Below are positions 53,198-63,262 of a DNA stretch of 64,000 nucleotides, one piece after another (the first letter of the stretch is position 1; every line of letters begins with the position of its first letter). This DNA is from Desulfomicrobium sp. ZS1. GTDB taxonomy: Bacteria > Desulfobacterota > Desulfovibrionia > Desulfovibrionales > Desulfomicrobiaceae. Position numbers and translations under genes: made by a program. The DNA lies in the NCBI RefSeq assembly GCF_024204645.1, contig NZ_CP100351.1, positions 2,232,001 to 2,296,000 of the forward strand, in the 5' to 3' direction. The notes below the pieces were generated by a model, which saw only the letters and a list, made by a program, of their open reading frames with translations, ran no database searches and was not told the DNA's origin.

Positions 53198-54355
53198 TTA
53201 GACCCTTTCAAGATTGGCAAGTAAAATCTGTCCGAACTCAGCACATCCCACCTGCTTCGCTTTGGCCATCTGACCAGCAAGATCAACAGTCACTCGGCCC
53301 TCGGAAATGGCCAATTCAACCGCGCTGCGTATTTTCCTGGCGGCTTCGTTCCAGCCCACGTGCTCAAGCATCAACGCCCCGGAAAGGATCAAACTGCCGG
53401 GATTGGCGAGATCTTTTCCTTCGATTGTCGGAGCGGTCCCATGCGTGGGCTCGAAAAAGGCCAGGTCGCTGCTCATGTTCACCCCCGGAGCCAATCCAAG
53501 TCCACCGACCTGGGCGGCGAGGGCATCGGAAAGGTAATCACCGTTCAAGTTCGGCGTGGCGATGACATCGTATTTTTCCGGCCTGATGAGCACCTCCTGA
53601 AACATGGCATCGGCGATGCGGTCCTGCAGCACAACCCGGCCAGGAGGACAACACTCCTCTCCCTCGCGAACCACCATCCCGGAAAACTCCTCCGCGGCAA
53701 GCTCATAACCCCAGTTGCGAAAGGCGCCTTCCGTGAACTTCATGATATTGCCCTTGTGGGCCATGGTCACACTTTCACGTCTCTGATCCAGGGCAAATTG
53801 AATCGCTTTGCGAATAAGTCTTTTGGAGCCCTTTGCCGTCATCGGCTTGATACCTATGCCGCTTTGCTCATCCACGTTCGCGCCCATTTCGTCCCTCAGG
53901 AAACTAATGAGCTTTCTGGCTTCAGGACTGCCTGCCTGCCATTCAATTCCTGCGTACACATCCTCGGTATTCTCGCGAAAAATAACCATGTTGACGCGTT
54001 CAGGATGCTTGACCGGACTTTCGATTCCCTTGAAATACTGGATGGGCCGGATACAGGCAAACAAATCCAGCGTCTGGCGCATGGTCACGTTCAGGCTGCG
54101 AAAGCCCTTGCCGACCGGCGTCTCAAGCGGTCCCTTCATGGCCAGATCCGCTGTCTTCAAAGTGTCCAGGGTCTCTTGCGGAAGATAGGAGCCTGTTGCC
54201 TCAAAAGCTTTCTTACCCGCCAACAGTTCAACCCATTCAAAACCGCGGCCGTCTCCAAAAGCCAGCTCAACGGCCCTGTCGAGAACAGGACGACCGGCCG
54301 CCCAAACTTCCCGTCCAATCCCGTCGCCTTCAATAAAATATACTCTGCGTTTCAT
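53198..54355 (-). CDS. icd: Isocitrate dehydrogenase (isocitrate/isopropylmalate DH family)
   Basis: A 385-residue enzyme. Substrate and metal motifs: GPLETPVGKGFRSLNVTMRQ (with the substrate serine and arginines), FRENTEDVYAGIEW, MAHKGNIMKFTEGAF (catalytic lysine), TPNLNGDYLSDALAAQVGGL (metal aspartates) and FFEPTHGTAP. This fits ICDH more than isopropylmalate dehydrogenase because of the NTEDVYAG loop. Cofactor preference (NADP or NAD) cannot be fixed by eye. The start ATG has GAGGAG at seven bases. It is a little shorter than E. coli Icd. A terminator-like hairpin lies just upstream. Confidence 0.93.
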   Translation of the reverse strand: MKRRVYFIEGDGIGREVWAAGRPVLDRAVELAFGDGRGFEWVELLAGKKAFEATGSYLPQETLDTLKTADLAMKGPLETPVGKGFRSLNVTMRQTLDLFACIRPIQYFKGIESPVKHPERVNMVIFRENTEDVYAGIEWQAGSPEARKLISFLRDEMGANVDEQSGIGIKPMTAKGSKRLIRKAIQFALDQRRESVTMAHKGNIMKFTEGAFRNWGYELAAEEFSGMVVREGEECCPPGRVVLQDRIADAMFQEVLIRPEKYDVIATPNLNGDYLSDALAAQVGGLGLAPGVNMSSDLAFFEPTHGTAPTIEGKDLANPGSLILSGALMLEHVGWNEAARKIRSAVELAISEGRVTVDLAGQMAKAKQVGCAEFGQILLANLERV

Positions 54356-54371
54356 ACTTTTCTCCTCGATC

Positions 54372-54399
54372 AAAAAAATAAAAACCCCTCGCGGGGTTT
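54372..54399 (-). terminator. Terminator-like hairpin in the icd leader
   Basis: On the minus strand AAACCCC-GCGA-GGGGTTT is followed by TTATTTTTTTG, ending only five bases before the icd Shine-Dalgarno. It could end an upstream transcript or attenuate icd. Confidence 0.7.
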
Positions 54400-54627: not shown

Positions 54628-55104
54628 TCAACTAAAGCAGACTTCCACCATAAGAGCGCCATGCTGCGTTTCAAAGGGGATTGCCAAAATGGCGCTTGTT
54701 GAAACATGTCTGATTGTATGCCCGGCCCCAGTGATCACAGATGGAATTGCCCCCTCGAAAATCATGCCCATGCCGACCAGACCTTTACGGGCCTGTCCGG
54801 AGATCATGTTTGTCAGCTCGCCGACAGCGTCAGTGACAACATCGTTTATTTCAGACTGCTCCTCGTAGAGCATCGCGCCGACAATGCCCAGCGCCGACGC
54901 CGTAGTGAAGGTCAGGGACATGGTTCCCCTGCTCTTGCCTTTGGGATTGGAAAATCCAATCACGCCCGTTACATCCCCTTGAGCGCCTGCGTGCTGTTTG
55001 ACAAAAGGAGTCCCTACCTTGACCTCGGTCATTGCCATCGTCTTCAAAACAGAGGTCGTCGCTTCCACGAACTGCGCAATTATTCCCTTTATGGTATCAT
55101 TCAT
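54628..55104 (-). CDS. cheX: CheX-type chemotaxis phosphatase
   Basis: A 158-residue CheX-family protein. Key residues: the VGELTNMISGQARKGL helix, carrying the E-x-x-N pair that dephosphorylates CheY-P; GVIGFSNPKGKSRGTMSLTF in the beta sheet; and the matching C-terminal GHTIRHVSTSAILAIPFET. It dephosphorylates response regulators. It ends a co-directional six-gene array that contains a receiver-only response regulator (58665-59051), its likely substrate. A gap of 73 bases separates it from the phosphatase fusion gene. Confidence 0.92.
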   Translation of the reverse strand: MNDTIKGIIAQFVEATTSVLKTMAMTEVKVGTPFVKQHAGAQGDVTGVIGFSNPKGKSRGTMSLTFTTASALGIVGAMLYEEQSEINDVVTDAVGELTNMISGQARKGLVGMGMIFEGAIPSVITGAGHTIRHVSTSAILAIPFETQHGALMVEVCFS

Positions 55105-55177
55105 ATTGACCCGCCATGTTGAAGTCGAAATTTATTGAAATAAGCACACAGTTCATGATCGTAAAAAAACTCATACG

Positions 55178-56218
55178 TCACTGCGAGCGCACCATCAAGT
55201 GAAACAGGGTCTGCACATACTTCCCCGAAACCACGTCGGCCAGGGCAAAAAGTGGCAAGGAGCCTTGGGAAATTCCCCCGGCAAAGGCAAGCCACAGCTC
55301 AAGAGACAGATTGCCGAGCGCCGGGTCAAGGGCTGTTTCCCATAAACCACCGGCCCTCTCTTCATCCAACCCAAAAAAACGGCAGCGCAGCGGTCGTCCG
55401 GTAAAAAGAATGCACTTCCCATTCTCCAGCAAGGGGCACTTCGCGCTGGCGTCGGACAAACAATACTCTTCGGCCGAAACCTGACTGTCGGCAAGACGTT
55501 CCCTGCGAGCGGTCTCCACTGCTCTGGCAATGACTTCCAAGCGTTTTTCGCTGGTCAGTCCAACGTTCATCTTTTGGGTCAGATACACAGCCTCGATCAT
55601 CGATAATTTGATCGGAGTGCTGCAACACTTGTCATGATCGCGTCCGCATTTGGAGACAATATCGCGCGTCTCGTCATCAGCCCTGGCCTGCAACGCTTCA
55701 TAATCACGAAAGAACGGGCTCAGATCAACGGCTTTGTGCATTTCCAGAGACGGCTCGCGCACAGTGAGCTTCGGGCTTTGCTTTCCATATTTCCGGATTG
55801 TCCACCACTGCGAAAAATTGGCGGGCTTGGATCTGAGCGTTCGCAACCTGAACCAGGCAAGGCGGTGTCCCAAGCCTCTGCGCAGCAGGTATGCGTTGAG
55901 CACCGTTCCGGTCCGCCCGATTCCATGACGGCAATGTATGAGCACCTTCTTGCCCAGGTAGATGGCTTCATCGAGCCAGGCCAGCGCCTTTTCCAATTCA
56001 GCCAGTTCCGGGGCCTCTTCGTCGGCAAGGGGCATGTGATACACTTCAAAACCGGCGGCGCACTCGATGTCGTGCAGATCGCAAAATTCACCGCACAGAT
56101 TGAGGATCGCTCCAATGCCCTCAGCGCGCAGGCAATCAAGTTGCTCATAGCTCATGGGAGCCGCCCCGACAGCGAGCTGATCCGTAACCCAGGTTGCAGA
56201 ATAGGCGCTGCGGCTCAT
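55178..56218 (-). CDS. Dual-specificity phosphatase fused to a CxxCxxCC (YkgJ-like) domain
   Basis: A 346-residue two-domain protein. Residues 1-150 are a cysteine phosphatase of the DSP type: IGAILNLCGEF, the general acid Asp in PLADEEAPEL, and the catalytic loop HCRHGIGRTG with Cys96 and Arg102. After a short linker, residues 185-285 hold seven cysteines: C191, C198 and C199 (CGRDHDKCC), C253, C261, C269 and C279 (CPLLENGKC, TGRPLRCRFFG), as in YkgJ/UPF0153 putative zinc- or iron-binding proteins. The last 60 residues are helical and unassigned. The start overlaps the PEP-synthase-like gene by four bases, so they are co-translated. Confidence 0.85.
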   Translation of the reverse strand: MSRSAYSATWVTDQLAVGAAPMSYEQLDCLRAEGIGAILNLCGEFCDLHDIECAAGFEVYHMPLADEEAPELAELEKALAWLDEAIYLGKKVLIHCRHGIGRTGTVLNAYLLRRGLGHRLAWFRLRTLRSKPANFSQWWTIRKYGKQSPKLTVREPSLEMHKAVDLSPFFRDYEALQARADDETRDIVSKCGRDHDKCCSTPIKLSMIEAVYLTQKMNVGLTSEKRLEVIARAVETARRERLADSQVSAEEYCLSDASAKCPLLENGKCILFTGRPLRCRFFGLDEERAGGLWETALDPALGNLSLELWLAFAGGISQGSLPLFALADVVSGKYVQTLFHLMVRSQ

Positions 56219-58668
56219 GCTCTTTCCTCCGGAAAAAATCGCTGCAGAAAAAGAGAAGCCTCGCTCTTGGCCTCGGCCGAATCTGCAAGCTTCACATCCA
56301 TGAGCCGCGTCACTGCCAAAACCAGGCCCAAGACCTCCAGAGCATGAGCGGTCTCGGCGGCGGGCATGCGCATGTACGATGCATCGAGCATGTCGCCCTT
56401 GATGGTTGTTTCGTAACCGAAATATTCCAGGACCTGACGCACAAAAATCAGCCTGTGCATGCGTTGCGGCAGGGCGGCGCCGCCTCCTTTAAAACGGAAT
56501 TTGATGTAGTTTGCACCCGGCAAATCTCCACAAAGGGCATCAACAATGGAAAAATGATACCCGAAGCGGATGTTCAAATGCATGTACTCCGAGGCAATGA
56601 TCGAGTAGCTGGCAAGAATTCGGGAATCCTTGCTGAAAATTCCCGCGCTGACCCGGTCAAAGGCCTCCCAATCAACGTGCAGCTGACTTTCATCCCAGGC
56701 CACGCGCTCATCGGCCAGTCCGGACCACAGCGCGCGAAGCGGAATGCAGGACAGCGCGCCCACATCCACCGGACCTTTTTCTGCTGCGCTGTCTGCAAGC
56801 CCGCCTCCCAGATCGAGCACATACATGACCAGCGGAAGCGTCGTCTCCAGCCGCCTGGATTTGCCAAGCCCCCGCCCGCCCCTGTCGACCAGGGAAAACA
56901 TTTCAGCGACGCTCTTTTCGTGACAAAACCGGACCAGGTCATGCAGTGATTGGCACCCCTCCGGCGTAAAATTTTCGTCCTCGGGATCCAAAAGGCTGAG
57001 TCGCACCGTGCATGAAGCCAGCTCCTGATTTTCGGCCCGAACCTGAGCATGAACCTTTTCAGCCTCATCGTTACGCACCATGATACTCGGCAGACAGCGG
57101 TCATAAATTTTCCCGGCCGCCGCATCCACCGTAACGACCGCGCCCTCTTCCAGGATGCCGGACTCGCATCCCACGACCACGGGCACCCGCCGCTCACGGG
57201 CCACTGAGGCCAGGTGGCTGGCTCTGCTTCCGTTGCCGGCCACGATGGCGACAATGCGATCCAGAAACTGCGAGAGCGCAGGGCGCAGCGTGTTGGTTAC
57301 CACTACCGACCCCTTGGGAATTCCGCGAAAATCGGCTCCGGATGAAACGTGATGGACCGGGCCACAGGCTGCCCCCGGAGACGCGCAATCCAGCTCCGAA
57401 ACCAGTTCAATCGCAGTAGCGATTTCTTCTGCGGAAAAAGCCTCCCTGTCCTGTTCCTGCTGCAAGGGTCTGGACTGCAGGATCGTGAGTCCGTCCGGCC
57501 CGAAGGCCCACTCCACATCCTGAGGCTGTCCGAAAACTTTTTCAAGATGCAGGGCCTTTTTGCCGAGTTCGCACAGGACCTGGTCGGTGATGGCCGCTGA
57601 ACTTTCGCAGACACAGCCCATCAAGATGGACGGCTCGGGCTCCCGGGTCAGATAATGCTTGCCCGGAGTCACCGATCCATCCACCAAATCCGCAGCCAGC
57701 CCGCCAACCACATAGACACCCACGGCGTTACCGCCCACCGCCGAGCATGCGGGATCGAAGGTGTAGACAACCCCTGCGGCCGAAGCCTCCACCATGGGCA
57801 GAACAAGGGCGGCCATGGCTGTATTGTTGTCGGTGAGGCCATGTCGAACCCTGTAGGCCAAAGCCCGGGGGCAATATTTCCCGGCCAGAACGCGCTTGTA
57901 GGCGGCAAGCACGTCAAACGGCTCGACATCCAGCTCGCTGGCGTATTGACCGGCAAAGGAGATGTCGCCGTCCTCAGCCAAGGCGCTCGATCGGACGGCC
58001 AGACGCCGACCCTCAAGATTCATGCTCTCCACCGCCCGCAGGATCTCGTCTGCGATATCCGCGGGGACTTTGGCCGCCAGGATAAGCTCCTGCAATTCTC
58101 CGGTTACACGGACAATGGCGTCATTATTGGACAGGGACACGTCCTCGAAACGCTTCTCGATTTCCTTTTCAAGGTCGTTGTCCCGCAGAAAGCGGGCGAA
58201 AGCCGAGGCCGTGATGACAAATCCCGGAGGGGTCGCTACGCCATTGCGGCGGACAATGGCCAGGTTGGCGGCTTTTCCTCCGACTTGGCCAGGATGGTCC
58301 GCAGCTTCATCCAAATTCAGCACGTAGGGGGGGGCAAAATCAAGCGGAGGCTGCGTCACCAGAACGGAAATGTCCGCAGCGATGCGCTCCAGCGCTTCCG
58401 GGAGGCTGGCGTACGCATGAGGATTCATGTCATAGAGGCTGGCCGTCATGTCGCGGACTGCCTGCACGAGCTGTCCGGTCAGAAATCTGACCCGGGCCAC
58501 GTCCGCCGGATCATAGCCGTATATGGGCGCTTCAAGATCGGCGATCAGGTCCAGGGCCTTGGCATCGCTGTCCAACAGTTCCTTGAAATGTTCGTATTTT
58601 TCACGAATGAGCCTGTTCGGAGCCAGCAGGCGGGTGAACCAGTGTCGTAACAGACGGGACGCGGTCAT
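56215..58668 (-). CDS. PEP synthase/PPDK-like protein lacking the PEP barrel
   Basis: An 817-residue protein. Residues 1-110 form an unassigned helical segment. About 120-410 is the ATP-grasp PPDK_N domain: GQVGGKAANLAIVRRNGVAT, LAVRSSALAEDGDISFAGQY, VEASAAGVVYTFDPA and EWAFGPDGLTILQSRPL. About 430-525 is the swivel domain with GNGSRASHLASVARERRVPV, where His485 is the expected phosphohistidine. The C-terminal 260 residues show no PEP-binding TIM barrel motif. ATP could phosphorylate His485, but PEP or pyruvate would not be bound in the usual place, so it may be a phosphotransfer or regulatory protein. Coupled to the receiver (four-base overlap) and the phosphatase. Confidence 0.85.
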   Translation of the reverse strand: MTASRLLRHWFTRLLAPNRLIREKYEHFKELLDSDAKALDLIADLEAPIYGYDPADVARVRFLTGQLVQAVRDMTASLYDMNPHAYASLPEALERIAADISVLVTQPPLDFAPPYVLNLDEAADHPGQVGGKAANLAIVRRNGVATPPGFVITASAFARFLRDNDLEKEIEKRFEDVSLSNNDAIVRVTGELQELILAAKVPADIADEILRAVESMNLEGRRLAVRSSALAEDGDISFAGQYASELDVEPFDVLAAYKRVLAGKYCPRALAYRVRHGLTDNNTAMAALVLPMVEASAAGVVYTFDPACSAVGGNAVGVYVVGGLAADLVDGSVTPGKHYLTREPEPSILMGCVCESSAAITDQVLCELGKKALHLEKVFGQPQDVEWAFGPDGLTILQSRPLQQEQDREAFSAEEIATAIELVSELDCASPGAACGPVHHVSSGADFRGIPKGSVVVTNTLRPALSQFLDRIVAIVAGNGSRASHLASVARERRVPVVVGCESGILEEGAVVTVDAAAGKIYDRCLPSIMVRNDEAEKVHAQVRAENQELASCTVRLSLLDPEDENFTPEGCQSLHDLVRFCHEKSVAEMFSLVDRGGRGLGKSRRLETTLPLVMYVLDLGGGLADSAAEKGPVDVGALSCIPLRALWSGLADERVAWDESQLHVDWEAFDRVSAGIFSKDSRILASYSIIASEYMHLNIRFGYHFSIVDALCGDLPGANYIKFRFKGGGAALPQRMHRLIFVRQVLEYFGYETTIKGDMLDASYMRMPAAETAHALEVLGLVLAVTRLMDVKLADSAEAKSEASLFLQRFFPEERA

Positions 58669-59051
58669 GGGACCTCGTCCTGGTGATCAGCACCCTGCCG
58701 CAAAACATCCGCGACCTTGGATTCGAGCTCTTCCTTGTCGATGGGCTTGACGCAGTACTCGCTGGCTCCAAGCTTCAAGGACTCACGGGCTGTTTCCAAG
58801 GTGGGATAGCCAGTCAGCATGATGACCTTGATCCGAGGGGCGAGCTTCTTCATCTCCGCCAGCACCTCGACCCCGGTCATCCTTTTGAGCTTGATATCGA
58901 GAATCGCAAGATCCGTAGCGCCTTTGGCCGCGTAACGGATGGCCTCCTCTTCTTCGGTGAACGCCGTGACCTGATGTCCCTGACGCTCCAGAATCCTTTT
59001 CACCAGAACTCCCGCATCGGAAACATCATCCAACACAATAATCGATGCCAT
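58665..59051 (-). CDS. Stand-alone response regulator receiver (CheY-like)
   Basis: A 128-residue receiver without an output domain. Phosphoacceptor Asp52 in LAILDIKLKRMTG, acidic pair in VLDDVSD at the N-terminus, Thr80 in IMLTGYPT and Lys102 in CVKPID. It lies between the sensor kinase and the PEP-synthase-like gene and overlaps the latter, so it presumably carries phosphate from the kinase to a protein partner rather than to DNA. CheX at the end of the array would dephosphorylate it. Confidence 0.93.
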   Translation of the reverse strand: MASIIVLDDVSDAGVLVKRILERQGHQVTAFTEEEEAIRYAAKGATDLAILDIKLKRMTGVEVLAEMKKLAPRIKVIMLTGYPTLETARESLKLGASEYCVKPIDKEELESKVADVLRQGADHQDEVP

Positions 59052-59147
59052 GCATCTCTCCTTACGATAAATTCTTGGTCTGCGGAGCAGTATCGCTAAA
59101 ACCGTTCATCTGTGTCCGCTACGCCGCACAACTCGTCAATGCGGATC

Positions 59148-61181
59148 CTAATATTCGGATCCGTGATCCAGGGGAATATCAACAGTAAAAATAGTTCCCG
59201 GTCCCTTCATGGCCCCCTCCGGCAACGGGGGAAGGTCGAAATCCGGCGGCAACGGGCTATCCGCTCGAATATCGCCCATATGATCCTTGACGATGCCAAA
59301 GGACACGGACAGCCCCAGCCCCGTTCCCTTGTCCACCGCCTTGGTAGTGTAGAATGGATCAAAAATCTTCTTCAAAGACACTTCGTCAATGCCCGTGCCG
59401 CTGTCAGCGACCTCAAGCGTCACTATCCCAAGAGGCGTCTTGAGCTTGGTGATCACAACAATGACCCCTCCGCTCTCGGGCATGGCATCTTTTGCGTTAT
59501 TGAGCAGATTGATCCAGATCTGTTTCAGCTTTTCCGGGTCTCCGTAAATGATGGGAAAGCTGTCATCAAGTCTGGTCACGATCCGCACCCTGTCCAGTTC
59601 GAAGGAATGTCGAACCAGGCTCACCGACTCCATGACCGAATTGTTGAAGCACATCTCCCGCTTATCAGTCTGGCCCTGACGAGAAAAGCCCAGCAGGTCG
59701 GCCACGATCTTGCGGCAGACCTTGGCCTGTTTCTCGATGATTGCCAGATCCTGACTCATCTGGCTTTCAGGAGGCACATCCTCTTTCAGGAGCTGCGCAT
59801 ATCCGAGGATGATACCAAGGGGAGTGTTGATCTCATGCGCTACGCCTCCGGCCAGCTTGCCGATGGATTCCATTTTTTGCGCCTGGATAAGCTGCTGCTC
59901 ATATTCCTTGATATCGGTAACATCCCGATCCATACGCAACAGGCTGACAATGCGACCCGACTCGTCGTGAACCGGGATCTGGACCACATGAAACCATTTG
60001 CGGCCATCCGGGCCATCGACGCGCTCCTGCCTGTCCACGCGCTCACCGGTGATGAGCACCTCCCGCCCTTCGAGATTTCTGCGCTCCGCCTCTTCCTCCG
60101 CAAAAATGTGAAAATCGTTGAGCCCCCGGATTTCAGCCACGGTCTTCCCCACGCTCTGCGCAAAAGCCCGGTTGGACGTCTGATAAATCATGCGCGTGTC
60201 CACCAGGGAAATGAGGTCGGGATTCATGTCGAGCACCGTGGACAAAAGCCGTTGCTGGTTGGTCAGAGTTTGCTCGGCCTCGCGCAGGCCGCGGATGTGA
60301 TCGCGCAGGGTAAAGGCCATAAAGTCCAGCGATTCGGCCAGATCCTGAATTTCATCGCCCACATTCTGCAGAAAAACAGGACAATCCCGGCAACTTGAAG
60401 GCTTCGGCCCGATTATACAGGCATGACAGGCGCATTTCGTGTCCGGCACCAGCCAACAACGACGTACGCGGTCATGATGGGCCGGGCAGCTTGTCTCCGT
60501 GCAATTCATGATTTCCCAGCAAAAATGCTCGCCCGGCAACACGGACAGGTTGTCGAGGCTCCCCGTGACCAAATCTTCGGCATGAGCGCGAAGCTTGGCC
60601 AGGCGGCGGGTCACCGTGCGGGCAAAAACGCTGCCCAGGGCCATGGCCGCAAGCAGCACCCCGCCGAACATGGTCGCCAGGGCCGAGACGAATTGCTTGG
60701 TGGTTGCGTTCAAGCGGGACTTGGACAAACCGATTCGCACGGTCCCGATGCGCTCTCCGGCGACCATTATGGGCGCGGCGAAGTCGTAGACAAATATCTG
60801 TCCCGTATCGATGAGTTGGACATGCACCCGCTCATTGCTCTCGACTCTGTTGGCCCCCACCAATTCGACGGGGTAGCCCTTGACGAAGGAATGGATGACG
60901 ACCCGGTTGTCCGCGTTCTGAACAAAAGCATAAACCACGTCGCCAATTTCACTGACCAGTGTTCTAAGGACAAGATAATCCTGGGCCAAAAGCGGATTCA
61001 CGGCGCGGGCAGCGAGGCTCTCGACCAGGGCGGCCCCGCGCAGCTTGTTTTCCGCCACCAGAGCCGAAGACGTCATTTTGGCCACAACGGGCAACAGCAC
61101 TGCCGCCATGCCAAGCACAATGGTGATGATGCCCAGATTGAGCTTTGTCTCGAATTTGAATCTGGAAAAAACGGATTTCAT
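59148..61181 (-). CDS. Membrane sensor histidine kinase with Cys-rich two-CW insert
   Basis: A 677-residue kinase. Two transmembrane helices (about 16-36 and 165-188) flank a periplasmic domain of about 130 residues. A HAMP-like linker is followed by a nine-cysteine block at residues 221-267, with CWEIMNCTETSCPAHHD and CWLVPDTKCACHAC, the so-called two-CW motif; this could bind metal or sense redox. A PAS domain (about 305-425) precedes HisKA with His449 in GGVAHEINTPLG, then HATPase motifs NLLNNAKDA, EVADSGTGI, GTGLGLSVS. It overlaps the lipoprotein gene upstream by four bases and lies 96 bases before the receiver. Confidence 0.93.
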   Translation of the reverse strand: MKSVFSRFKFETKLNLGIITIVLGMAAVLLPVVAKMTSSALVAENKLRGAALVESLAARAVNPLLAQDYLVLRTLVSEIGDVVYAFVQNADNRVVIHSFVKGYPVELVGANRVESNERVHVQLIDTGQIFVYDFAAPIMVAGERIGTVRIGLSKSRLNATTKQFVSALATMFGGVLLAAMALGSVFARTVTRRLAKLRAHAEDLVTGSLDNLSVLPGEHFCWEIMNCTETSCPAHHDRVRRCWLVPDTKCACHACIIGPKPSSCRDCPVFLQNVGDEIQDLAESLDFMAFTLRDHIRGLREAEQTLTNQQRLLSTVLDMNPDLISLVDTRMIYQTSNRAFAQSVGKTVAEIRGLNDFHIFAEEEAERRNLEGREVLITGERVDRQERVDGPDGRKWFHVVQIPVHDESGRIVSLLRMDRDVTDIKEYEQQLIQAQKMESIGKLAGGVAHEINTPLGIILGYAQLLKEDVPPESQMSQDLAIIEKQAKVCRKIVADLLGFSRQGQTDKREMCFNNSVMESVSLVRHSFELDRVRIVTRLDDSFPIIYGDPEKLKQIWINLLNNAKDAMPESGGVIVVITKLKTPLGIVTLEVADSGTGIDEVSLKKIFDPFYTTKAVDKGTGLGLSVSFGIVKDHMGDIRADSPLPPDFDLPPLPEGAMKGPGTIFTVDIPLDHGSEY

Positions 61182-62101
61182 TGAAAATCCCCATTCAAAT
61201 TCAAGCGCCGTATCAAGCTTCTGACTGGTTCGTAGTCCTCGTCACGGGCAGAGATAATGTCGACCATTCCCGCAGCGGCAAGGACCGTGGCATCATCGCG
61301 TCGGCTCGCGCTCAGGTCCAGCAGAGCCCGGGAGATCTTATTTTTGGTGGCCGGATCAAAACCTTTCCGCACGGAGTACACCCAGCCCGGATATGGACGG
61401 CTTTCAGCCAGCACGCGAATCTGCTCCAGATCTATCTTGTCGCGCACGACATCAAGCGTGCCCTTGCGAATCGTGCCGACATCGTAAGCGCCCGTATACA
61501 CGGCCAGAACTACCGCCTCCTGCCTTCCGCCGGCTCCGGTGGCAAAAGAGACTTCCTGAAAATCTTTTTGTGTGATGCCCTGGTCGAAGAAAAGGCCAAA
61601 AGGATATAAAAAACCCCCAGCAGAATTGGGGTCAACGGCGATGATTCGTTTTCCTCGACAGTCCTCAAGGCTGTTTATGGCGGGGTTGTCGGCGCGCACA
61701 ATAATCTGACCTTGAAAATTGGCGCCGCCATCAGGCTCGACAATGCGTGCGAAGGCTTCGGAGCCATGTCTGGCCAAAGATATGTACACGAATGGATTGG
61801 TGAAGGAGATGTCTATCTCGCCGCGTTCCACCATCTTGATATGCTCGGCGAATGTATTGGGAAAGACCTGGCGCAGGGACAGCCCGGTCTTGTGCCGCAG
61901 ATATTCAAGCAAGCGGCGATGACGTTCAAAAGATACGGAGTGCGAATACTGGGGCAGATAGGCATAGGTGATGGCCGAGGTCGACCCGAGCGGAGCTGCG
62001 CTTTCGACCTTTGACATGTCCACCTTTACGACGGACTCGTCTTCCGTGCAGGCGGCCATGGTGAACACCAATAAAAGAATCAGAAGTCGCGCAAACGTCA
62101 T
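61178..62101 (-). CDS. PhnD-like periplasmic binding lipoprotein
   Basis: A 307-residue PBP type 2 protein of the phosphate/phosphite/phosphonate (PhnD) family. A lipoprotein signal ends in TMAAC (Cys18). ITYAYLPQYSHSVSFERHRR, FTNPFVYISLARHG, VDPNSAGGFLYPFGLFFDQG, AYDVGTIRKGTLDVV and the conserved terminal segment are typical of the family. There is no ABC permease or ATPase beside it. The start overlaps nothing upstream, but its stop overlaps the kinase start (ATGA), so it is probably the periplasmic ligand receptor for that kinase. Ligand is unknown. Confidence 0.9.
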   Translation of the reverse strand: MTFARLLILLLVFTMAACTEDESVVKVDMSKVESAAPLGSTSAITYAYLPQYSHSVSFERHRRLLEYLRHKTGLSLRQVFPNTFAEHIKMVERGEIDISFTNPFVYISLARHGSEAFARIVEPDGGANFQGQIIVRADNPAINSLEDCRGKRIIAVDPNSAGGFLYPFGLFFDQGITQKDFQEVSFATGAGGRQEAVVLAVYTGAYDVGTIRKGTLDVVRDKIDLEQIRVLAESRPYPGWVYSVRKGFDPATKNKISRALLDLSASRRDDATVLAAAGMVDIISARDEDYEPVRSLIRRLNLNGDFQ

Positions 62102-62398
62102 GGTCCCTCTTCGGCTATATTATTTCTATCCGATGCCTTACCTCAAAAGGCCAAAACCAACAACCAGAAGGTTTCTCCGTCCTTTAAGCGCAGGCGCTTC
62201 CGGCCATTCGGATTCATTGCGGAAACGGCATCATCAGAGGATGGTCCAAGGCGTAGGACGAGGCGATCGTCCACGCTGCATGCAGGCCGAAGGCTTTTTT
62301 TGGGAGCAAACCCCCCGCGTCCTTCATCAATGCTTGATGCGCGGCCGCTGACATTGTATCGGTATGCACGTCAACAAACCTCAACACCGGATACAATC

Positions 62399-63262
62399 AT
62401 GCACTCGGTCAAACGACTTGCCCATATCGATTTCAATATTCCGGGCGTGAAAGCCGTCGGAATGGAACTGATGAGACTGATCAACTCCCCAAACCCCGAT
62501 ATGGAAGCCTTCGCCCGGACCGTCGAGCTCGACCCGGCCATCTTTGGCTCCATCCTGGCCTGCGCCAATTCCCCTTTATTCGCCGGTATTGCGGAAATTT
62601 CGGATTTGCGAGTTGCGCTGAACCGACTTGGCATGAAGGAAATTCGCCGAATCATCTTCCATGTAGTCCTCGAATCGGCATTCAGATCCGACAACGCGGA
62701 AATCAACAAGCTTCTGCGCGCCATCTGGAAGCAGAATCTGGCCGTTTCGCTGACCATGCAGCGGCTCATCCAGGAATGCCCGCAGGTAAAAGCCCTGCCC
62801 ATGGAAATGGTCTCCATGATCTATCCTCTTGGTCTCATGCATGTCATCGGCATTCCGGTGCTCGCCATCAATTTTTATGAAGCATTCGCAAAATTCATCC
62901 ATGAAGACCTCTCGCGTCCGTTGCCGGAAATCTATGCGCGTGAAAAAGAGCTCTTCGACGGATTCGATCACTTTGAACTGGGCGCGGAATTGATCAAGCG
63001 CTGGGGCTTTCCGGATTTTGTGCCCGACATCATCTCAACCTACCATGTGCCCGAACCGAGCCTCGATGCACACAGCCGCACCTTGCATTCCCTGCTGCGT
63101 TTTGCCCGCCATCTTGCCCAGGAACTTGGTTTTGCGGCGCTTCCCGGCGCACCCGAAGGCTTTTGGCTGGAAAGCAACACTCTCGACGTATCCAAGGTGA
63201 ACACCCAGGAAATCATGGCCGATGTCACTGATCAGCTCAAGAAAATAACCGCCATGTTTTAG
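62399..63262 (+). CDS. HDOD-domain signalling protein
   Basis: A 287-residue HDOD protein. Recognisable blocks: FARTVELDPAIFGSILACAN, LRVALNRLGMKEIRRIIFHV, YPLGLMHVIGIPVLAINFYE and FELGAELIKRWGFPD. The HD residues are replaced, as in all HDOD proteins, so it is a protein-interaction rather than phosphohydrolase domain. The ATG is preferred over a frame extending further upstream by sequence and modest GGA spacing. It is divergent from the signalling array and ends at a bidirectional terminator. Confidence 0.88.
   Translation: MHSVKRLAHIDFNIPGVKAVGMELMRLINSPNPDMEAFARTVELDPAIFGSILACANSPLFAGIAEISDLRVALNRLGMKEIRRIIFHVVLESAFRSDNAEINKLLRAIWKQNLAVSLTMQRLIQECPQVKALPMEMVSMIYPLGLMHVIGIPVLAINFYEAFAKFIHEDLSRPLPEIYAREKELFDGFDHFELGAELIKRWGFPDFVPDIISTYHVPEPSLDAHSRTLHSLLRFARHLAQELGFAALPGAPEGFWLESNTLDVSKVNTQEIMADVTDQLKKITAMF

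Follow-up and report, generated by a model that had tools for sequence, protein, structure and literature searches.

A receiver-linked dikinase-type gene array in Desulfomicrobium sp. ZS1 and its relation to the nitrate cluster

What is sensed, and what is controlled, by a gene array in which a binding lipoprotein, a sensor kinase, a receiver-only regulator, a protein resembling phosphoenolpyruvate (PEP) synthase and two phosphatases follow one another? The array lies on the minus strand, from position 62101 down to 54628, of a stretch of 64,000 nucleotides from Desulfomicrobium sp. ZS1 (contig NZ_CP100351.1, positions 2,232,001 to 2,296,000), the whole of which is called the window below. The initial annotation of this DNA knew of no described system with such a composition; by annotation and order, however, it matches the "nitrate cluster" reported by Korte and co-authors in 2014 for D. 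vulgaris (DVU0251-0245) and D. alaskensis (Dde_0597-0605; PMC4001038). That the array is the signalling half of this cluster is well supported by the published annotation, the gene order, the domains and the approximate gene sizes.

Gene order and the nitrate cluster

A check of the open reading frames (ORFs) in the window places the six genes where the initial annotation had them, all on the minus strand, and coordinates and Pfam domains are in agreement. They encode, in order of transcription, a PhnD/PtxB-family periplasmic lipoprotein (61178-62101), a sensor histidine kinase (59148-61181), a receiver-only response regulator (58665-59051), a PEP-synthase-like (PPS-like) protein of the dikinase type (56215-58668), a dual-specificity-type phosphatase (DSP) with a C-terminal Cys-rich domain (55178-56218) and a CheX-type phospho-receiver phosphatase (54628-55104). 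Overlaps of four bases join PhnD to the kinase gene (61178-61181), the receiver to the PPS-like gene (58665-58668) and the latter to DSP (56215-56218); a gap of 96 bases separates kinase and receiver, and one of 73 bases DSP and CheX.

A DSP profile search gave 234 relatives, and the locus counts that follow concern the best 80 of these 234, including loci cut by contig ends. The PPS-like gene is located directly upstream of DSP in 76 of the 80, and the complete five-gene order (PhnD, kinase, receiver, PPS-like, DSP) is present in 35, or in 30 of the 54 loci with an upstream flank of at least 9 kb. A receiver of the array type occurs in 57 (45 of the 54 with the long flank). TauE, the gene for a TauE/SafE permease, lies inside the locus in 27 cases, and in 17 it leads, together with a small membrane protein gene, a seven-gene order. 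The best PPS-like matches of relatives show the same five-gene order in several families of the taxonomic order, with some loci rearranged. At a strict threshold, 134 of the 247 genomes sampled from the order have DSP, as do 42 of 395 from the phylum. The array order is far beyond chance.

The proposal of a conserved signalling unit, comprising a sensor kinase, a receiver-only regulator, a protein of the ATP-to-His type and a cysteine phosphatase, is thus borne out by conservation and Pfam domains. Its extent was overstated: five genes form the core, and CheX is a genus-level addition to it. Of the 11 genus loci listed, 9 have CheX next to DSP and two, L046 and L048, have DSP without it; among the best 80 DSP loci CheX is present only in Desulfomicrobium and in the 89%-identical L078. 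In the table of relatives' best PPS-like matches, no locus of another genus has CheX beside the array. A close CheX orthologue (82-100%) is found in 11 of the 16 genus genomes; two others (G005, G009) possess DSP and lack this orthologue, and three (G006, G010, G011) have neither it nor a full-length DSP match, the PPS match of G010 running off the contig end. A conserved unit of six genes was considered and rejected, since CheX is missing from the array outside the genus.

The published cluster consists of a TauE-like permease, a conserved hypothetical protein, PtxB/PhnD, a histidine kinase, a receiver, a PPDK-type protein and a dual-specificity phosphatase (PMC4001038), so that the stretch from PhnD to DSP is contiguous and in the same order in both. 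The permease and the small protein lead the operon there, whereas in ZS1 they are about 1.5 Mb from the array and accompanied by a degenerate PPS-like protein; the ZS1 array, unlike the cluster, has the added CheX. The ZS1 locus is therefore a split form of the nitrate cluster. A permease of the same TauE subfamily is encoded at 791-792 kb of contig C1 of the ZS1 genome (E 1e-182), and TauE with the small membrane protein gene occupies about 791.3-793.2 kb, both being absent from the locus in the window. With a degenerate PPS-like protein of 566 residues they form a trio beside a secF-like gene (L071:4756-8524, about 791.3-795.0 kb). The degenerate protein has kept the N-terminal (about 1-295) and C-terminal (about 541-788) regions and has lost the phospho-His domain. 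Other members of the genus and G018 have the same trio, and in G127 the order is TauE, small protein, PhnD, kinase and degenerate PPS, with PPS-DSP at another place. Across the order, the TauE subfamily is present in 129 of 134 genomes with DSP versus 41 of 113 without (n=247; Fisher p 2e-26, phylogeny ignored).

The small membrane protein (L084:2789-3355 and homologues), which is DVU0250-like by position, was modelled with a predicted local distance difference test (pLDDT) score of 90. In the structure comparison a chain of the multipass-translocon ribosome complex (7tut; Z 8.5, 140 residues aligned) came first and a TMCO1-translocon chain (6w6l; Z 6.6) eighth, and Foldseek returned no significant match for the protein. 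Helical proteins reach such scores by chance, so that an Oxa1/TMCO1-like fold is no more than a lead.

Insertions in the nitrate cluster result in resistance to 100-150 mM nitrate and not to nitrite (PMC4001038). In D. vulgaris (DvH), mutants of the PPDK, the receiver, DVU0250 and the permease are resistant, unlike the DSP mutant: DVU0251, DVU0250, DVU0247 and DVU0246 insertion mutants grow equally with and without 100 mM nitrate, and DVU0245 (DSP) mutants remain nitrate-inhibited, with a fitness of -6.04 (PMC4001038). As the DSP mutant is not resistant, polarity on DSP cannot be the whole explanation of why the PPS-like mutant is, and the opposite signs of the two mutants fit an antagonism of kinase and phosphatase. 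The authors regarded the genes as poorly annotated and suggested a leaky thiosulfate transporter (PMC4001038); later mechanistic work on the cluster was not found in the literature searched.

Components of the array

The lipoprotein has a lipobox (MAAC, Cys18) and matches PF12974 with 213 bits. Its profile also matches the solved PhnD, PtxB and HtxB proteins, together with the arsenic-sensing ArrX and Aio-type PtxB-like proteins, and no ABC permease or ATPase was recognised among the ORFs adjoining its gene. AioX and ArrX, which have the PtxB/PhnD fold, are oxyanion sensors and the first component of kinase systems (PMC5908839), and a similar role as sensor subunit is putative here. Common to the AioX-AioS-AioR and ArrX three-component sensors and the array is a periplasmic protein of this fold next to a sensor kinase, with no ABC transporter alongside. 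The regulator of those systems has a transcriptional output, whereas that of the array is receiver-only, and the array adds a dikinase-type protein and a phosphatase downstream.

The kinase consists of sCache_3_2, HAMP, a Cys-rich linker, PAS, HisKA (H449) and HATPase_c, with Pfam support for sCache_3_2, PAS, HisKA and HATPase_c. The linker between HAMP and PAS (residues 220-270 approximately; window 60370-60525) contains invariant C and W residues and has no Pfam or NCBIfam match; it is a possible metal or redox site. The Cys residues and the kinase motifs are invariant in 19 orthologues. The receiver (Response_reg in Pfam, 128 residues, phospho-acceptor D52) has no output domain and hence no transcriptional output; D8, D9, D52, T80 and K102 are invariant in 20 of 20 sequences.

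Four regions can be distinguished in the PPS-like protein: an N-terminal helical part (1-110), ATP-grasp (about 112-403), the phospho-His swivel (about 414-527) and a C-terminal domain (about 548-817). His485 is located within the swivel motif GSRASH and, like K132, R226 and E232, is present in 53 of 53 orthologues. The C-terminal motif HDxxRxxHE (576-584) is found in at least 52 of these 53 and in 27 of 28 paralogues. Of seven degenerate copies, none retains K132, H485 or H583 and one retains R580; being conserved in orthologues and paralogues and mostly lost in these copies, the motif tracks catalytic competence. The AlphaFold model (pLDDT 86) was searched as a whole, and the search covered residues 112-542. 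Residues 112-524 resemble rifampin phosphotransferase (Z 37.3, root-mean-square deviation 3.1, 390 residues aligned), with PEP synthase behind at Z 30.4. The C-terminal domain has no Pfam family, and Pfam and PDB profile searches gave chance-level matches only. ATP-grasp and swivel, with conserved catalytic residues, are thus shared with rifampin phosphotransferase, HpeHI and PEP synthase. In place of the rifampin-binding or PEP/pyruvate domain the protein has unnamed N- and C-terminal regions, and the linked two-component system and DSP further set it apart from these three. Two genomes encode PPS-like and DSP as a single uninterrupted frame with a short linker (L225:5474-9289, 1272 residues; L226:1483-5244, 1254 residues). 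At L229:8811-9992 a protein of 394 residues beside DSP has the N- and C-terminal regions only, as though the core of ATP-grasp and His domains were an insert that can be taken out.

Receivers also accompany PPS-like paralogues: the surrounding 13 kb contain one in 12 of 20 cases versus 1 of 20 control segments, and receiver-only proteins are nearby in 8 versus none, in what is a small sample with arbitrary round positions as controls and counts that ignore phylogeny. At L070:7265-14866 (about 625-633 kb of C1 in ZS1), paralogues of 918 and 938 residues are in tandem downstream of genes for a histidine kinase and a receiver, which suggests a wider PPS-like/two-component family.

DSP (DSPc/Tc-R-P; PF00782, 52.4 bits against a cut-off of 33.5) has the active site HCRHGIGRTG, of which C96, R102 and T103 are invariant, and the general acid D66 is nearly so. 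Its Cys-rich part resembles PF03692 below the cut-off (E 0.0087). CheX scores 82.8 bits with PF13690 (cut-off 27) and, below its cut-off, 63 against 280 with the Thermotogales equivalog. It has significant similarity to solved CheX-like chains, with which it aligns over the conserved GE(L/V)TN segment (GELTN/GEVTN, ExxN-type). In contrast to the CheX/CheC phosphatases of chemotaxis, it lies outside a chemotaxis operon and adjoins a receiver-only signalling array.

Consensus scanning gave a sigma-70-like promoter match directly upstream of PhnD (62119-62146, minus strand). The best terminator-like site, in a region whose total of such sites does not exceed that of shuffles, is a hairpin with a T tract 3′ of CheX (54399-54382, minus strand), which likely marks the end of the transcription unit; none was listed by the scan within the 96- and 73-base gaps. 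A search of the window for Rex-type operators, allowing up to 3 mismatches, gave 4 matches where 3.1 are expected, and none of them lies at the promoter of the array. The divergent gene at 62300-63262, which we take to be of the HDOD type, stays beside the array within the genus. The gene at 53198-54373, presumably isocitrate/isopropylmalate-dehydrogenase-like, directly follows CheX past the terminator-like site and is retained beside CheX in genus members.

A working model and its alternatives

We see an even chance that the array operates, as the genetics and the linkage of the genes suggest, as a chain from sensor to kinase, receiver and PPS-like protein, with DSP opposing the last step and the TauE permease as output; the ligand, the order of phosphotransfer, the acceptor and the control of the permease are those we infer. 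The lipoprotein would bind an oxyanion in the periplasm, probably one of sulfur, and together with the Cache-type kinase it would set the phosphorylation of the receiver. Having no DNA-binding domain, the receiver is expected to act by protein contact, and in its phosphorylated form it would switch on the PPS-like dikinase. The latter would pass phosphate from ATP to His485 and on to an acceptor held by the C-terminal domain, and DSP would work in the reverse direction on this substrate or product. The output might then raise the activity of the oxyanion permease, which in many relatives is encoded, with its small membrane partner, in the same operon, and in this genus CheX would hasten the loss of the receiver phosphate. 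In its most specific form the proposal, which is less likely than not, would amount to a new principle of signalling: an ATP-dependent histidine dikinase with an unnamed acceptor domain, driven by a receiver-only regulator and reversed by a fused or adjacent DSP, would gate an anion permease post-translationally.

Several observations weigh against this scheme. Two genus members (G006, G011) have the trio of TauE, small protein and degenerate PPS without the array, which is the main indication that the permease can at times do without it; the TauE subfamily is missing from five genomes that have DSP. The L229 protein, without the core and yet beside DSP, indicates that ATP-grasp is not always required. 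In G20 all cluster mutants are resistant, DSP included (+2.08), and the pooled and single-mutant data for DVU0250 disagree (both PMC4001038); the DvH kinase gene is annotated as a pseudogene. Moreover, orthology of the array genes to the DVU and Dde genes is taken from annotation and order, not from sequence.

Among the alternatives, the one to be taken most seriously, though less likely than not, is a small-molecule cycle. A soluble metabolite would be phosphorylated by the PPS-like protein, acting as a dikinase in the manner of rifampin phosphotransferase or HpeHI, and the product would be hydrolysed by DSP; this product, and not a protein, would then be the signal or a trapped transport substrate. 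The nearest fold over residues 112-524 is indeed that of a small-molecule dikinase (Z 37), HpeHI is a related one, the C-terminal domain carries a conserved polar set of its own in HDxxRxxHE, and PPS and DSP are nearly inseparable or fused. The adjacency of receiver and kinase, among the paralogues too, and the degenerate copies beside the permease are nevertheless better suited to signalling than to catabolism. It is unlikely that the receiver addresses another kinase or the permease directly, with PPS-DSP a separate module that is merely co-transcribed: in three Desulfobulbaceae loci (L096, L140, L142) PPS-DSP is accompanied by TauE and the small membrane protein and PhnD is missing, and in L131, L139 and L146 the sensor genes and PPS-DSP have opposite orientations, but the overlap of receiver and PPS-like genes and the frequency of array-type receivers stand against it.

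A metabolic PEP synthase governed by the two-component system is very improbable. The PPDK_N and PEP-utilizers domains that Pfam assigns would suit it, and the ATP-grasp and phospho-His part of the PEP-synthase-like label stands; however, Pfam finds no PEP/pyruvate-binding domain, without which the protein is not a PEP synthase. Its scores fall well short of the PEP synthase equivalog cut-offs (240.5 versus 598 and 223.6 versus 739.75 bits), and a second ORF of 834 residues in the same genome, which it matches over the ATP-grasp and swivel regions only, is a candidate for the true enzyme. That the genes are unrelated and co-directional by chance, for which we found no supporting point, is refuted to near certainty by an array order conserved across the order and by PPS-DSP across the phylum.

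Implications for nitrate resistance and two-component signalling

Nitrate is injected into oil reservoirs to keep sulfate reducers from souring them. Without the nitrate cluster these bacteria become resistant, and learning what the cluster senses and controls would account for that resistance. The split operon, the degenerate copies and the fusions are natural experiments at hand. With its dikinase core, its C-terminal domain and the linked receiver and DSP, the PPS-like family is a candidate for an undescribed route from a two-component system to a transporter and, if this is true, many PPS-like paralogues of Desulfobacterota would be further two-component outputs.

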